Virus record (IMG/VR): IMGVR_UViG_3300032286_000586
Span: 1-24,845 of that record
DNA from: a virus
Direction: 5' to 3' (one strand)
DNA: 24,845 nucleotides
Shown here: positions 2,560-8,174 of the stretch, piece by piece
How the letters are laid out: each line of letters begins with the position of its first letter
How positions within the stretch are numbered: the stretch's first letter is position 1
Made by a program: the position numbers and the translations under genes
Notes under the pieces: model-generated
What the model was told of the DNA's origin: nothing
Databases searched by the model: none
What the model saw: only the letters and a program-made list of their open reading frames with translations

Positions 2560-3306
2560 TTATTCAAATGTTTTGGTTAGGGTTGCTACAACTGCGTTCT
2601 TGTAAAGTTTTTGACCATTTACATTGTTAGCTGTTTGGAAAGTGCTTGTCATAGAACTATTAGTGTAGTACTTGGCATTGATTGACCAATCTTTTGGCAA
2701 GGCATAGCCTAAGCCAACGTTCATGTCATTGTAGTCCAAGTTACTACTGTTAGCAACGTTAGTACGACCATAGTGAGCCAAGAAACTCACGTCTTTCAAC
2801 TTGGCACTCAAAGGTGCAAGTGATTGAGCGATATCAGCTTGTGTATAGTTTGTGTTTTTAGCATTGGCAGTACCAAAGTAACCGTTGCCCAATGTCTGGC
2901 TGTACTTAACTGCCACAGGACCATAACCTACGCCAATGAAACCTTCGTATGTGTCATAGTTAGAACCTGTCTTGGCTGAAGTAGTAGCACGTGGATAGAA
3001 GTAGTTGTATGTACCAACATCAATAGTGATGCCACGGTAGATATCTTTCTTGTATCCTGCATAGAGATCGCTCTCAACACCAGCACCGTTTGTGTAAACT
3101 TGTGAACTTACACTACTGTTCCAGTTACCAATATACAAACCACTTGAGTGTGCATAGTCAACGCCGCCTTGGACAGCAGGAGCATTTTGGGATTGACTAA
3201 TGCCGCGGAAACGGTAGTCACTGGTCAAACCTAAATTGCCAGATACCTGAGCGTGAGCCGCGGTAATGCTAGCCAGAGCAAGAATTGCTAATAGTACTTT
3301 TTTCAT
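2560..3306 (-). CDS. TorF-family putative outer-membrane porin
   Basis: A 248-residue protein that starts with a Sec signal peptide (MKKVLLAILALASITAAHA, cleavage before QVSGNLG) and continues as alternating amphipathic strands rich in Tyr, Gly, Asn and Ser. The motif SGNLGLTSDYRFRGISQS near the N terminus and the final ALTKTFE-like strand ending in a C-terminal aromatic pair region are typical of the TIGR02001/TorF group of small porin-like proteins common in Proteobacteria. It should form a beta-barrel in the outer membrane. The start at 3306 is preceded by AAGGAAAT; an ATG 42 bases upstream would bury the signal peptide. It has its own terminator, and a hairpin-rich leader separates it from ssrA. 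A porin gene is unusual cargo for a phage and may alter permeability or receptor exposure of the infected host. Confidence 0.85.
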   Translation of the reverse strand: MKKVLLAILALASITAAHAQVSGNLGLTSDYRFRGISQSQNAPAVQGGVDYAHSSGLYIGNWNSSVSSQVYTNGAGVESDLYAGYKKDIYRGITIDVGTYNYFYPRATTSAKTGSNYDTYEGFIGVGYGPVAVKYSQTLGNGYFGTANAKNTNYTQADIAQSLAPLSAKLKDVSFLAHYGRTNVANSSNLDYNDMNVGLGYALPKDWSINAKYYTNSSMTSTFQTANNVNGQKLYKNAVVATLTKTFE

Positions 3307-3326
3307 CTGATTATTTCCTTTTAAGA

Positions 3327-3348
3327 ATGTTGAGACGAAGCTCAACAT
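3327..3348 (-). promoter_or_regulatory. Hairpin in the 5' leader of the porin gene
   Basis: An 8-bp perfect inverted repeat, ATGTTGAG / CTCAACAT with a 6-base loop, ends 6 bases before the AAGGAAAT ribosome site. It could protect the mRNA 5' end or control translation; no terminator T-run follows it. Confidence 0.5.
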
Positions 3349-3391: not shown

Positions 3392-3421
3392 TTTCTAGTA
3401 ACTTTTAGAGTTAACTGCGTA

Positions 3422-3446
3422 CAAAAAGAAACCCGCCGAAGCGGGT
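3422..3446 (-). terminator. Rho-independent terminator of ssrA
   Basis: Stem ACCCGC / GCGGGT with a TTCG loop followed by TTTCTTTTTG on the minus strand, placed after the coding piece of the tmRNA. Confidence 0.88.
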
Positions 3447-3756
3447 CCTGTTAGTTTCTGTTACGAGGTATAACTACCCTAGGCGGCCTAAGCTGCCAAT
3501 GCGAACTGTTCGTCGTTTGCGTTTACGTTATTTGCTTTTTACGTCTACTCCTGACGTGTTGCCTTTTTCGTTATCTCGCCATGTCGAAACCTTGTCATCC
3601 CCATCATAAAGATACATACCGCATAGTTTACAAAACAGGCTATTCCCCACAGATACTGCCAGTGCCAATTTTCAAACATAATATATCCTTATGGTGGAGA
3701 TGCCGGGAATCGAACCCGGGTCCACAGCGCCTTCACTACGAAGGAATTACAACAAT
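3447..3756 (-). ncRNA. ssrA: Transfer-messenger RNA, circularly permuted (two-piece) form
   Basis: The gene order on the minus strand is acceptor piece first, then coding piece, which is the reverse of a normal one-piece tmRNA. The acceptor piece (about 3756-3692) contains the T arm (CCCGGGTTCGATTCCCGG) and ends in an encoded CCA at 3694-3692. After an 89-base intervening segment the coding piece starts with GGGGATG at 3602; it pairs over 7 bp with CATCTCC before the discriminator A, forming the acceptor stem, and is followed by the conserved GGTTTCGAC D-loop-like segment. CATGGCG can pair with GCGCTGTG to form helix 2. The tag frame at 3520-3488 reads ANDEQFALAA followed by TAG. The RNA rescues stalled ribosomes with SmpB and tags the peptide for proteolysis. 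Permuted ssrA is known from alphaproteobacteria, cyanobacteria and one betaproteobacterial lineage; the tag is of the beta/gamma type. Exact processed ends are inferred. Confidence 0.93.
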
Positions 3757-3759
3757 ACT

Positions 3760-3927
3760 TTAATTATAACCTTTTACGGCTTTTCCGTCAACCTTTGGGT
3801 TGCCTTTTGCGTGAGCGTCTTGTAACTTACTACGATCACGTTCGTCTGGCAACGGACCGCAACCCAATCGATTCCATTCTTGTTTGGAATAGTAATAGCC
3901 TTCTACAGGTTTTTTGTTTGGTTTCAT
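3760..3927 (-). CDS. Small hypothetical protein (55 aa)
   Basis: A short basic, hydrophilic protein with the segment EGYYYSKQEWNRLGCGPLPDE and no membrane helix or signal peptide. I do not recognise a family. The ATG at 3927 has no clear ribosome site; a TTG at 3948 that overlaps the stop of the upstream receptor gene as TTGA is the alternative and would add seven residues. Its last 10 codons contain the -35 and -10 boxes of ssrA, so the end of the gene is constrained by that promoter. It may be translated by coupling with the receptor gene. Confidence 0.5.
   Translation of the reverse strand: MKPNKKPVEGYYYSKQEWNRLGCGPLPDERDRSKLQDAHAKGNPKVDGKAVKGYN
3763..3791 (-). promoter_or_regulatory. Sigma70 promoter of ssrA
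   Basis: TTGACG (3791-3786), 17-base spacer, TATAAT (3768-3763). The predicted transcript start is near 3756, just ahead of the acceptor piece. The promoter sits inside the 3' end of the small upstream gene. Confidence 0.85.
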
Positions 3928-3944
3928 TTGCAGATATTTAGTTA

Positions 3945-4847
3945 TCAATTTCCTTGTTTTGCAGTTTGTATATCATTTTCATATTTTGTTTGTAATTGTT
4001 TGATCTTGGATATTGAACCTGTGTAGAATTGTTCTGTGCTGATTCCATCAAACACTGGAGGACGCATAGCAGACAACTTGTAAATTTCAGACAGTCCTAT
4101 TTTTTGAACAGCTGAATCTAATATAACGCTGATGGCTTTTTGTCTGGCCTTGGGCATGCTTTTATGCGATATAATAATGTTGAAAATGTACGGAGCGTCT
4201 GCTCCTAGTTCTCTAACTGTTTTGATGTTGGGTGCTTGGGCAAGTCTTGCTGGGCAGCTGGCAGCAACCATTTGTAACTTGGGATTTTTAATTTTAAAAG
4301 ACTCGTAATTTTCGTATTTGTCAATGATAAAATCCACACCATTATCCGCTGCCATGTTTGCTAATGCATCAAAGTTTGATTTAAAAACAATATATCTAAC
4401 TTTAAAATTATATTTTTTTGCAAGACTTAGTGCAGTCAAGTGAGTGGCATTACCAAACCCAACTCCGCCTACTACAAATTCAGTACCACTATTGAGAGGT
4501 TTGTTAGCAATGACCGCCCAGCAGGCATCTCCTAGCGCATGAATGGGCACATAATCTGATTCATTCAGTTTGCCAGATGCAATATTTTCCACATACGACG
4601 GAGCAATAATAGCCAGACTGTTGTCGGGCTCCAGGCTCTTGACCGCAATAATTTGATTGCCGCCGGGTTTAAAATCCAAAATAAATTTGTAAATGTCTTG
4701 CGAGCCATTGGCCTGATCAATTATTCTTCTCAATGCAGGTGTGCCGCTGTGTCCTGGACTGTAAGGAGAATATATTTTGATAATTTCCGAAGCCTGGACA
4801 ATAGCTGGAGACAAGGCTATCAGTATAACTAATAATATTTTTTTCAT
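3945..4847 (-). CDS. Tripartite tricarboxylate transporter (TTT/Bug) family receptor, divergent
   Basis: A 300-residue secreted solute-binding protein with a clear signal peptide (MKKILLVILIALSPAIVQA, then SEIIKIYSPYSPG). Family landmarks are FKPGGNQIIAVKSL, matching the usual RPGAGG ligand loop, and GGVGFGNATHLTALSLAKK, matching the GSGTxxHL segment. Bug proteins bind carboxylates in the periplasm and hand them to a TctAB-type permease; no permease gene is present here. The sequence is more divergent than the copy at 5975-6889, with several Asn/Lys-rich stretches. The start at 4847 is set by the signal peptide; the 72 bases upstream that are open in frame run through a terminator hairpin. 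No ribosome site is obvious. It is followed by the small gene at 3927. Confidence 0.82.
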   Translation of the reverse strand: MKKILLVILIALSPAIVQASEIIKIYSPYSPGHSGTPALRRIIDQANGSQDIYKFILDFKPGGNQIIAVKSLEPDNSLAIIAPSYVENIASGKLNESDYVPIHALGDACWAVIANKPLNSGTEFVVGGVGFGNATHLTALSLAKKYNFKVRYIVFKSNFDALANMAADNGVDFIIDKYENYESFKIKNPKLQMVAASCPARLAQAPNIKTVRELGADAPYIFNIIISHKSMPKARQKAISVILDSAVQKIGLSEIYKLSAMRPPVFDGISTEQFYTGSISKIKQLQTKYENDIQTAKQGN

Positions 4848-4863
4848 AAAAATTTTAAAAGAA

Positions 4864-4886
4864 AAAGTGGGCAGACCGCCCACTTT
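4864..4886 (-). terminator. Rho-independent terminator after the TRAP receptor gene
   Basis: A 9-bp stem AAAGTGGGC / GCCCACTTT followed by TTTC on the minus strand lies 11 bases after the stop at 4897 and 17 bases before the start of the next receptor gene. Confidence 0.85.
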
Positions 4887-4896
4887 ATTTGAAATA

Positions 4897-5382
4897 TCAA
4901 CTGCGTTTAATACGGTCAATCAGTCCTGGTGAGAATGTGGGTTCAAACTGCTCGTACACTGCTTGAGCCTTTTGCTTCCACTCGGCTGTTTCTTCTGGTG
5001 TCAGGTCAACAATGTCAATACCGTCGGCCATCAACTGCTGTTTGGCCGCTTCGCCGTCTTGTATAGTAACTTCACGTTCACGACGACCTGCTTTGATAGC
5101 AGCATCTTTGATCACAGCTTGTACTTCTGGACTTAACGTCTTCCAAAAGTCATCGCGCATGATCATGGTGGTCAAAAATAAGCTGTGCTTGCTGTCAATT
5201 ACAGTTTGGCTAACTTCATTTTGACCCAAGGGATAAATGCGACTGTAAACAGTTTCGCCACCTTCGCAATCACCTTCGATGATGTGGGCACGGGTGTCTT
5301 CGGTTTCACAAACAAAAACATCAGCGCCCAACACACGCATGGTTTCCTGAGCAACAGGATTACGATTGGTTCTTATTTTCAT
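4897..5382 (-). CDS. TRAP/DctP-type solute-binding protein, C-terminal half (split gene)
   Basis: A 161-residue product matching the second lobe of DctP-type receptors. It begins MKIRTNRNPVAQETMRVLGA, which corresponds to the conserved family segment containing the carboxylate-binding Arg (LKxRV), and ends with the long C-terminal helices (LTPEETAEWKQKAQAVYEQF). In intact homologues this would directly continue the upstream product. The ATG overlaps the stop of the N-terminal half as ATGA. Either a single-base deletion in an A-run split the gene, or the two halves are translated separately by coupling and assemble. A terminator follows at 4864-4886. It has no signal peptide. Confidence 0.8.
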   Translation of the reverse strand: MKIRTNRNPVAQETMRVLGADVFVCETEDTRAHIIEGDCEGGETVYSRIYPLGQNEVSQTVIDSKHSLFLTTMIMRDDFWKTLSPEVQAVIKDAAIKAGRREREVTIQDGEAAKQQLMADGIDIVDLTPEETAEWKQKAQAVYEQFEPTFSPGLIDRIKRS

Positions 5383-5849
5383 TTGCTGCCTAGATCTTTG
5401 AGTGTGCTGACTTTTTTGTTGGCAATAATGTTACGGAAGCCGCCTGAGTATGTGAATGCCATACCACGCACATTGGATTTCTTGGTGATCTTTTCTAGCA
5501 ATTCTTCACCAACTGGACCTTCCAACACACGAGTTGCATGGTCGTGATCACTGAAAATAAACGGCATTTCCAATGACAACATGTCATGCTCGATATCTTC
5601 GGCTAACCAGGTTGTGTACATCTGACTCATTTCAATCTTGCCTTGATCCATCAGATCGATCAAGTCGTGTTTTGTAACCAAAACACCATCATTGTATTTC
5701 ATGCTGTACTCGGACAGAGTCATTACTTCAACTTCGATCTTTTCTGCACTTTGAGCTTCATTAACAAACTGCTGGAAATCTTTAGCTGCACGCAAAAATA
5801 GGCTTAATGGTTCGTGAGCAATTACCCAACGAATTTTAGTAGTTTTCAT
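5379..5849 (-). CDS. TRAP/DctP-type solute-binding protein, N-terminal half (split gene, no signal peptide)
   Basis: A 156-residue product matching the first lobe of DctP-type receptors: it opens with KIRWVIAHEPLSLFLRAAKDFQQFVNEA and ends with FTYSGGFRNIIANKKVSTLKDLGSK just before TGA. Together with the downstream product it would give about 317 residues, close to a full DctP domain. AAGGAAT precedes the ATG, and an in-frame TAA 24 bases upstream excludes a hidden signal peptide; the protein begins directly with the first beta strand. DctP proteins normally act in the periplasm and deliver C4-dicarboxylates or related acids to DctQM permeases; no permease is encoded here. As written, the protein should stay in the cytoplasm, where it could act as a ligand sequestering or sensing protein (inference). 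Confidence 0.8.
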   Translation of the reverse strand: MKTTKIRWVIAHEPLSLFLRAAKDFQQFVNEAQSAEKIEVEVMTLSEYSMKYNDGVLVTKHDLIDLMDQGKIEMSQMYTTWLAEDIEHDMLSLEMPFIFSDHDHATRVLEGPVGEELLEKITKKSNVRGMAFTYSGGFRNIIANKKVSTLKDLGSK

Positions 5850-5974: not shown

Positions 5975-6889
5975 TTATTTGTCCAATTTAACACCCTGGG
6001 TCAAGCGTCTCCACTGTACCAGCTGTGAATTGTACCAGTCGTTTAGCTGTGCATCGGGCATTTGATTGTTGGGCACACAGTTATCAGCGGCATTGGCATC
6101 ACGTACTGTTTTGGCACGACTGGCTACTACTAGAATTTGACGAAGTTCGTTGAATCGTGCATCAGGTAACTTGCGTGACGCAAAGATCTGTTGCGGTGTA
6201 CTCATGCTGGTCAGGTTTTTACTGAATCCTTGTTTGGACAATAGTTCTGTGCCTTTGATACTGTGATCGCCAGTTTGCCCCAGCCAGTAGACCTGTCGGA
6301 CCGCTCCTGGTGCAGTATACTGTTCACTGTCACCGTGGAAGCCCACGCTAAAATCCACAGTACCACTTAGCACGTTCAACAAGGCTTCGCTGGTGCTTTT
6401 AAATGGCACAATGGTCATGTTGGGATAGTTCTTGGCAATCTGCAAGCTGACCAAGTGTGTGGTGGTTCCTAAGCCGCTCATGCCAATTGACAGACGGGCA
6501 TCACGTGGCACTTCTTTCCATGTTTTGTAACGGGCACTGCTGACCACAAACGGACTCACACACATGGGCAGGATACTGCGGAAGTCGGCCATGCTGTGAC
6601 TTTCTGTTGGAAACAGGTTAGGACGGATAAAAGCCGCCGAACTGTTGATCCATAAGGTCGTTGTGGGATTGTTGTTGGTGTAGTTTGCAGCCACGGTGCC
6701 ACCGGCACCTGGTTTAGGATCAAACACAAAGGTGTATTGATTTTGTAATTTGTTGGCTTCTTCGGCCAAGGCACGATAGAAGTTGGCAGCATTATCACCG
6801 GCACCCCAACTATAGGCCAAGGTGATAGTTTCTTTTGCTGTTGCTGTAAATGACAGGGCGGCTAATACAACTGCTAGGAGTTTTTTCAT
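5975..6889 (-). CDS. Tripartite tricarboxylate transporter (TTT/Bug) family receptor
   Basis: A 304-residue periplasmic receptor with signal peptide MKKLLAVVLAALSFTATA followed by KETITLAYSWGAGD. The ligand loop DPKPGAGGTVAAN and the segment GMSGLGTTTHLVSLQIAKN are the standard landmarks of Bug proteins, which bind citrate, dicarboxylates or aromatic acids for a TctAB-type permease. AAGGAAAT five bases before the ATG gives a firm start. The length is normal for the family. The stop is followed by a 125-base gap that ends at the TRAP gene and contains a weak GGGT/ACCC-T4 hairpin and the overlapping inverted repeats. It lies 9 bases downstream of the PP-loop gene. Receptor genes without permeases suggest use of host permeases. 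Confidence 0.88.
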   Translation of the reverse strand: MKKLLAVVLAALSFTATAKETITLAYSWGAGDNAANFYRALAEEANKLQNQYTFVFDPKPGAGGTVAANYTNNNPTTTLWINSSAAFIRPNLFPTESHSMADFRSILPMCVSPFVVSSARYKTWKEVPRDARLSIGMSGLGTTTHLVSLQIAKNYPNMTIVPFKSTSEALLNVLSGTVDFSVGFHGDSEQYTAPGAVRQVYWLGQTGDHSIKGTELLSKQGFSKNLTSMSTPQQIFASRKLPDARFNELRQILVVASRAKTVRDANAADNCVPNNQMPDAQLNDWYNSQLVQWRRLTQGVKLDK

Positions 6890-6898
6890 ACTATTTCC

Positions 6899-8083
6899 TT
6901 AAAATTTAAAATGCAAATTGGTACCAGGGTCTGCAAAGTCGGCTTCGCCTAGATAATAAAACGGACTTATAAATCCAACAAGACCCACGGGTCTGCCCAT
7001 TTCGTAATTAAAATATTTGGGATCAATTGAATCAACCAGATACTTCAGACCACTTTGCCAAACACGATACGCATGAGTGTCTTGAAAATTTGTGTAAAAC
7101 CAATGATCCATTTCGTTGTAAAAACTGTTGGTGGGCTTGCTGGTCTGAAATGTTGTAGGGTCATAATCAGGATAGATCAAAGGTTTGACAATGTGTTCAA
7201 AAGTAGTGCGTTGTGTAAAACTATAATTGGGCCATCGAACCAAGTGCTGAAGATATTTATTACTTTCTAAATTGAACCAATTTTTTATCATGTGTGCTTG
7301 TTTACACAACAGTTCTGGCAGTTCTGGACTCCAGAAAAAATATTCATTAGTAACATTGGTGTAGCCTCCAGTATCAGGGTTGGCTGCATTGGCCTGGATG
7401 TCCATAAAATACAGGTACCACTTTTTATCTTTGATGCAGACCTTGGGTTTATCTACACCCCATAACACGCAAACTCGCTGTCCTTGATCCAGCTTTCTTT
7501 TGTGATCATCTACTGCATCCACTGTGTGCTTGAACGGGTGTCCGGGCTGAAAATAGTCTCTAGTTTTAAACACCCAGCTTTCGTCGTGTCGACTGCTGAG
7601 CATGTCCTCACTATAGTCATGTATGGTGATAAGCGTTTGTGGGCTATGGATAGAAATCCAATTCAGTATGGGCATGGCCGCATACCGAGCCTCACTCAGC
7701 GTATTCTCGGGCTTGGTATTAAATGGATCGTCGCTAACGTTCTTCTCGCCGGTTTTGGGATAACGAAACACCACTTCATCTAGATGTATACCATTATTGA
7801 TAAAAGTATAGGCTACGGTAGCACTGTCGCTACCTCCACTAAATTCTAATCTAATGTAATCGTAGCTGTCTCTAATCTGCTGTGCTCGTATGCGATACAG
7901 TTCAAGTAGGTTTGATGTGGGCTCTGATAACCAATCATAGGCGTCAAATACTGCACGATTAAAATTCCATTCTGGAAATTGATTTCGTTGAGATCCTTCA
8001 ATCAGGGCCATGACTTTGTTGTGGAATTTTTCCTCCCCAATTTGGTAGTACCCTAGTTTGTCATTTTTTTCGATGTTTAGCAT
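6899..8083 (-). CDS. PP-loop superfamily ATPase (adenine nucleotide alpha hydrolase-like), phage type
   Basis: A 394-residue protein with the pyrophosphatase loop SGGSDS at residues 82-87, after a hydrophobic strand (YIRLEF). This fold activates a carbonyl or carboxyl group with ATP, as in QueC, asparagine synthetase, TilS and PAPS reductase. The remaining sequence (for example VLWGVDKPKVCIKDKKWYLYFMD and a long aromatic C-terminal region) is not one of those enzymes; the four-Cys zinc site of QueC is absent. The reading frame is open into the tRNA upstream, but translation of tRNA is an artefact; the ATG at 8083, 14 bases after the tRNA CCA end, is the likely start. It has no Shine-Dalgarno sequence. 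The substrate is unknown. Confidence 0.72.
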   Translation of the reverse strand: MLNIEKNDKLGYYQIGEEKFHNKVMALIEGSQRNQFPEWNFNRAVFDAYDWLSEPTSNLLELYRIRAQQIRDSYDYIRLEFSGGSDSATVAYTFINNGIHLDEVVFRYPKTGEKNVSDDPFNTKPENTLSEARYAAMPILNWISIHSPQTLITIHDYSEDMLSSRHDESWVFKTRDYFQPGHPFKHTVDAVDDHKRKLDQGQRVCVLWGVDKPKVCIKDKKWYLYFMDIQANAANPDTGGYTNVTNEYFFWSPELPELLCKQAHMIKNWFNLESNKYLQHLVRWPNYSFTQRTTFEHIVKPLIYPDYDPTTFQTSKPTNSFYNEMDHWFYTNFQDTHAYRVWQSGLKYLVDSIDPKYFNYEMGRPVGLVGFISPFYYLGEADFADPGTNLHFKF

Positions 8084-8097
8084 ATAGTATTTGTGTT

Positions 8098-8174
8098 TGG
8101 TGGGCCTTGTTGGATTCGAACCAACCACCGAGCGATTATGAGTCGCTAGCTCTAACCGAATGAGCTAAAGGCCC
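8098..8174 (-). tRNA. tRNA-Ile2 (anticodon CAU, probable lysidine tRNA)
   Basis: A full cloverleaf of 77 bases with encoded CCA. The acceptor stem GGGCCTT / AAGGCCC is perfect over 7 bp, the D arm reads AGCTC...GAGCT, the anticodon stem is AGCGA / TCGCT with loop CTCATAA, and the T arm is GTTGG TTCGAAT CCAAC. The anticodon CAU could be Met or Ile2. The anticodon stem and loop (GCGACTCATAATCGC) equal those of E. coli tRNA-Ile2, not elongator Met, so it probably reads AUA after C34 is changed to lysidine by host TilS. Phages often carry this tRNA. Confidence 0.95.

Follow-up and report, generated by a model that had tools for sequence, protein, structure and literature searches.

The 24,845-nucleotide stretch analysed here (IMG/VR virus record IMGVR_UViG_3300032286_000586, positions 1 to 24,845; hereafter the window) comes from a large freshwater tailed phage. 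Its sequence identifies a betaproteobacterial-type circularly permuted two-piece tmRNA gene, and a small protein gene appears to be nested within the spacer that separates the two pieces. We consider it highly probable that these are two genes in one, a single transcript yielding both the two-piece tmRNA and a spacer that carries the small gene. Comparison with other virus contigs indicates that in these phages the spacer of the tmRNA serves as a slot for small genes. The new part is this small conserved membrane-protein gene in the spacer, together with the unrelated small genes that occupy the same slot in related phages.

Results

The permuted tmRNA gene of the window

The tmRNA gene is complete and lies on the minus strand. 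Its parts, and those of the nested gene, are as follows, in the order of transcription.

3760-3948: 62-aa ORF with the YYYSKQEWNRLGCGPLP motif, upstream of the tmRNA and containing the tmRNA promoter within its last codons (3' end)
3763..3791, minus strand: sigma-70-type promoter TTGACG-17-TATAAT, near-consensus (11/12 consensus positions)
3692..3754, minus strand: acceptor (tRNA-3') piece with T arm, 3' strand of the acceptor stem and encoded CCA (RF04321 alignment, ARAGORN); its mature 5' end is approximate
3603..3691, minus strand: intervening segment (spacer), 89 nt, predicted to be removed on maturation (ARAGORN domain boundaries)
3682..3691, minus strand: 5' strand of the precursor's extended acceptor stem, TAAGGATATA, containing the Shine-Dalgarno (SD) (sequence, covariation)
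3545..3679, minus strand: nested small ORF of 44 codons, MFENWHWQYLWGIACFVNYAVCIFMMGMTRFRHGEITKKATRQE (sequence, family conservation)
3607..3616, minus strand: 3' strand of the extended acceptor stem, followed by TGAT/GGGG (covariation)
3488..3602, minus strand: coding (tRNA-5' and mRNA-like) piece, to the tag stop (cmscan, ARAGORN)
3488..3520, minus strand: tag reading frame ANDEQFALAA and stop TAG (ARAGORN)
3421..3448, minus strand: intrinsic terminator, hairpin (3448-3429) and T-run (sequence scan)

The sequence-only reading had proposed a permuted two-piece tmRNA with its own promoter and terminator in a phage-like genome, and each of these elements was recovered. Using cmscan, the region matched the Rfam families RF01850 (beta_tmRNA; 3805-3427, 166 bits, gathering score 84, E 6.8e-52) and RF04321 (tmRNA_permuted; 3754-3488, 142.5 bits, gathering score 47), and none of the one-piece tmRNA families, a match to which would have spoken for an unpermuted gene, scored above threshold. 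ARAGORN agreed, reporting a permuted tmRNA with the tag ANDEQFALAA, whose coding piece opens with GGGGATG at 3602. Along the RNA, the acceptor/T-arm piece, with its CCA end at 3692, precedes the spacer and then the coding piece, and in the permuted structure given by ARAGORN the acceptor stem can be formed only between the two pieces. The tag has the frame set by the resume codon, an ALAA-type end and a stop. The promoter consensus alone is not significant, as one promoter-type site was found against a mean of 1.4 in shuffles (700 bp); the promoter-like leader of the RF01850 model itself aligns at the window promoter. The possibility that the element is a prophage attachment-site fragment of a host ssrA was rejected, since the gene is complete and no integrase match was found in the 30 window ORFs scanned.

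Phage origin and neighbourhood

The phage-like character of the genome is confirmed by its status as an IMG/VR virus record and by a gene order common to other virus contigs. The order exonuclease, MazG, 185-aa ORF and tmRNA, with other genes between, is found in many of them, including contigs of 320 kb and 342 kb. A search of 28 records, comprising the window itself and 27 contigs that mostly bear spacer ORFs, gave terminase (phrog_2) matches in 8, 7 of these at E 1e-44 or better; the window was not among them. The exonuclease of the window and its counterpart in PA5oct-like jumbo phages share 52% identity, and the order QueE, structural protein, exonuclease is common to both. In the PA5oct-like phage Paride and in XbC2, the 21 kb of sequence surrounding the exonuclease contains no tmRNA.

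Beside the tmRNA, at 2560-3348, 3945-4919 and 5975-6889, lie genes for phage-borne solute-binding proteins (two of TctC/Bug type) and a Gcw_chp outer-membrane-type protein. At 4897-5849, a solute-binding gene of TRAP type (DctP) is broken into two ORFs overlapping by 4 nt; its relatives at loci L113 and L125, where DctP and Bug homologs also lie near the tmRNAs, align in a single continuous frame, which indicates that the window copy is frameshifted, through decay or sequencing error. A tRNA with a CAU anticodon (8098-8174) overlaps the listed start of ORF 6899-8128, the true start of which is probably further downstream.

Permuted tmRNAs are common in aquatic phages

That the gene is unusual phage cargo, as the sequence-only reading hinted, is not supported: the permuted phage tmRNA is itself already known and is common in aquatic phages. 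PMC9004378 describes a two-piece tmRNA in the OM43 phage Melnitz and counts two-piece forms as 53 of the 133 distinct structures of phage tmRNAs, PMC11915505 counts 79 unique tmRNAs from bacteriophages, and our own pattern scans of IMG/VR (one tag pattern and one T-arm pattern) returned 115 permuted tmRNAs. They are also present in cultured phages of Pseudomonas, Xanthomonas and Stenotrophomonas, in some cases unannotated: those of the Samunavirus phages SM1, UF_RH6 and PA_L9 and of Xanthomonas phage Rb1 (L474, L475, L476, L480) are missing from the record annotation.

The suggestion that the gene marks the host lineage from which it was taken found no support. In a tree of the mature pieces, the 25 sampled Burkholderiaceae chromosomal copies form a single clade (100/99) with the window outside it, and the nearest rows to the window are all phage; recent capture from a Burkholderiaceae host was rejected on this basis. 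As for the tags, lengths of 20-31 aa (for example ANADTFDFSAMSFTGNSVSGKSKVALAA) occur in 32 of 111 viral permuted tmRNAs that were not tag-selected (L132, L140, L174, L349 and L409 among them), in recurring families, and the tag is 10 aa long in all 21 distinct bacterial permuted tmRNAs. One phage-type permuted tmRNA (L148/L207) lies on a contig of 3 kb (G006 contig C195) that had been assigned to a bacterial MAG; a different contig of this MAG gives a weak tmRNA match of its own. C195 is probably a mis-binned phage contig.

An ORF nested in the spacer of the window

The sequence-only reading was right about the tmRNA but overlooked the nested ORF. Between CCA and GGGG, the window spacer reads TAAGGATATATT-ATG and then an open frame, with the SD AAGGA at 3690-3686 and the ATG at 3679. 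The first 25 codons lie within the spacer, of which the ORF covers 87%, and the last 58 nt within the mature coding piece. The peptide has one predicted hydrophobic helix, and its conserved hydrophobic N-terminal part is the part encoded by the spacer; its family is found in 20 distinct spacers. No Pfam match was obtained for the peptide, nor any tblastn match against cultured phages. We define the class of spacer ORFs by an SD in the first spacer strand, an ATG 4-20 nt after CCA, an ORF that covers 78% or more of the spacer, and relatives under purifying selection, all of which the window shows. Its ORF does not stop before the coding piece, a marker of the read-through sub-class only and not a defining feature, and its end is dictated by the tmRNA sequence, not by a conserved protein.

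Spacer ORFs across phages

An SD followed by ATG and an ORF (>=78% of the spacer) was present in 16 of 104 unique unbiased viral spacers, against a mean of 0.43 and a maximum of 3 expected by chance (300 dinucleotide shuffles of the 104-spacer set). Because the targeted samples were chosen on SD and ATG, the frequency is obtainable only from this set, whose loci were found by tag or T-arm and not by SD; the figure of ~15% so obtained holds for those beta-like phage tmRNAs that the two unbiased patterns recovered. The remaining 84-88% of unbiased viral spacers are without such an ORF, and none was found in the permuted tmRNAs of the cultured phages checked, including the 107-112-nt spacers of SM1, UF_RH6, PA_L9 and Rb1. 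Control spacers with an SD and ORF numbered 0 of 25 in Burkholderiaceae (beta), where the spacers sampled are 29-76 nt long (median 33), and 0 of 25 in alphaproteobacteria, where they are mostly 22-57 nt.

With targeted scans added (two for the SD and one for peptides), the distinct ORF-bearing spacers numbered 109, and their products fall into 50 unrelated families. The sampling covered hosts and phages other than cyanobacterial ones, most contigs are fragments and the boundaries are those of ARAGORN. One cargo is a full-length DUF2061 (E 3.5e-20) and another is PGDYG (Pfam E 3.4e-6; phrog_419 E 9.7e-12). Pfam gave nothing over the cut-off for 20 other spacer peptides, PGDYG was the sole clear match to PHROGs among ten peptides, and no homing endonuclease was seen among the cargo. 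Fourteen of the 50 families, that of the window included, are strongly hydrophobic, and the longest cargo has 124 aa after correction of a parser boundary. Tandem pairs of genes in one spacer occur in two cases: L414 holds two hydrophobic ORFs, and L326 (1393-2057) has two ORFs in its spacer and a window-type small gene just upstream of its tmRNA.

The layout of these genes is regular. The ATG lies 11-13 nt past CCA in 96 of 109 spacers. The stop falls 1 nt before the coding piece in 46 of 109 (the TGA of TGAT/GGG) and 12-13 nt before it in 15, and the ORF reads into the coding piece in 46 as parsed, 3 of these calls being boundary errors in which the ORF actually stops before the coding piece. 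At the level of families, the three stop classes split 22/14/14, and the choice of the TGA frame exceeds one third (P = 6e-4).

Codon substitution patterns show that the spacer ORFs are under purifying selection. Counted on the spacer part alone, with the stem strand dropped, pN/pS in the true frame was 0.35 for the window family, 0.26 for the MNDDLT family and 0.40 for the MKYTALCP family, and about 0.7-4.6 in the other two frames of these three largest families. The window family is also found as a gene outside the spacer (MFENWHWVYMWGILVVVNYMFWIVKSLFDNVKE) at seven loci, in three of which its 3' end lies immediately before the acceptor piece of the tmRNA, and relatives of the window's upstream 62-aa gene lie within the spacers of L091, L404, L431 and L435. 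Together, these two observations indicate that genes move between the upstream position and the spacer.

The extended acceptor stem contains the Shine-Dalgarno

The spacer is closed by base pairing between its ends, nucleotide k with position -(k+4) for k = 1-10, along with C75-G(-3) and A76-U(-4), and this helix lengthens the acceptor stem by about 10 bp. Across 68 distinct ORF-bearing ends (two ends from mis-parsed coding-piece boundaries having been omitted), 95.1% of cells are paired, with a covariation score of 0.393 against 0.164 shuffled and 0.04-0.11 slid. The extended stem is also present in bacterial and ORF-less viral spacers, and the SD is therefore one strand of an ancestral helix. 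In ORF-bearing spacers alone, however, AAGG is fixed on the 5' strand and in many cases faces U; the account of the SD as merely a stem strand was rejected as incomplete, as ORF-less spacers keep the stem with other sequences. Predicted exposure of the SD (medians of 54) rises from 0.4% in the precursor to 6.8% once the spacer is free, and even in the released spacer equilibrium folding leaves the SD mostly paired. A simple switch, in which release of the spacer would expose the SD, is thus weakly supported by these predictions.

Discussion

We infer that the nested ORF is translated, and propose the following series of steps. Most likely, ribosomes would load on the nascent precursor, where the SD is transcribed ahead of its partner strand. 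Closure of the stem over the SD would then turn initiation off, and the tmRNA would fold and be processed. In the read-through class, cleavage by RNase P would strip the stop codon from the spacer RNA, leaving a nonstop message; late translation of this RNA would stall, the peptide would be tagged by tmRNA and expression would thereby limit itself. The phage tmRNA itself presumably rescues ribosomes during infection. According to PMC9433436, the RNase P complex is inhibited from forming when the 5' leader pairs with 3'RCCA, so a ribosome that melts the helix could also affect processing. More broadly, the discarded spacer may be an exchangeable cassette site for small genes in large aquatic phages, in which the stem strand doubles as a ribosome-binding site, such that cargo translation and tmRNA maturation exclude each other and tmRNA processing or saturation controls the cargo. 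We put this forward tentatively, judging its chance of being right to be a little below even, and because the stem is ancestral, its role in locking the SD is an interpretation.

The simplest account would be an ordinary phage permuted tmRNA with a longish spacer, in which the open frame arose by chance and AAGGA is the 5' stem strand alone. The stem is indeed present in bacterial and ORF-less spacers too, and 84-88% of unbiased viral spacers lack an ORF. Against this stand the 16 ORFs seen where 0.43 were expected, purifying selection confined to the ORF frame, two Pfam domains within spacers, relatives outside spacers, and AAGG fixed on the 5' strand of ORF-bearing spacers only. We regard this account as very improbable, and a chance ORF as such was rejected by the excess over shuffles, the conservation of the families and pN/pS. 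It is quite possible, if on balance doubtful, that the gene is real and merely rides along, being translated constitutively from readthrough or precursor RNA with no regulatory tie to the folding or processing of the tmRNA. The extreme diversity of the cargo (50 families), the fact that its proteins are unrelated to ribosome rescue, and the possibility of tandem gene pairs in one spacer fit such a passenger well; stops clustered exactly before the processing site, an SD inside a conserved helix and an ATG at a fixed distance fit it less well.

The phage tmRNA could also be non-canonical: in place of ribosome rescue, its role would be to supply the spacer peptide, or to serve as a decoy or inhibitor against the host tmRNA. 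A precedent is the tag-less tmRNA of phage DS6A, which inhibits the endogenous tmRNA (cited in PMC11915505), and the odd 20-31-aa tags of some phage tmRNAs point the same way. In the window, however, the T arm is complete, CCA and the acceptor stem are retained, and the tag is the standard ANDEQFALAA, closed by a stop in frame; we consider a non-canonical role improbable.

The window presents a tmRNA gene that would double as an mRNA gene, in which the constraints of RNA structure and of protein overlap. At least 50 small-protein families are likely to have been missed by gene callers because they lie inside an RNA gene, and the spacer offers a fixed address at which further small genes can be sought. 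Spacer genes would also explain the wide length variation among the spacers of phage permuted tmRNAs. A coupling of small-protein expression (14 of the 50 families being hydrophobic) to ribosome rescue in phages becomes testable.

Searches of the open-access literature turned up no earlier description of tmRNA spacers that carry protein genes. A large tmRNA survey reports two spacers with inserts, one a tRNA-Ala and the other a repeat element, and homing endonuclease genes in group I introns. The latter offer a parallel: in the group I intron tmRNA (PMC11915505), as here, a protein gene resides in a removable part of the tmRNA gene, but there the slot is a self-splicing intron in a one-piece tmRNA, whereas in the window it is an RNase-processed spacer of the permuted form. 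The tmRNA of Melnitz (PMC9004378) is likewise a phage-borne permuted ssrA of aquatic phages; it differs in its glutamine riboswitch and its kinship with the alphaproteobacterial lineage, and the available text mentions no spacer gene. A further likeness, mechanistic only, is to arfA, a nonstop mRNA that PMC10107115 describes as repressed by trans-translation. If RNase P cuts the read-through class, its spacer RNA would similarly be an mRNA without a stop codon and sensitive to tmRNA, but arfA itself belongs to no tmRNA gene. With the betaproteobacterial permuted tmRNA (RF01850; RF04321), the window shares piece order, promoter, terminator, tag and the extended precursor stem. The bacterial spacers sampled are short and without SD and ORF, whereas those of phages are longer and some bear genes, and the phage sequences fall outside the Burkholderiaceae clade.
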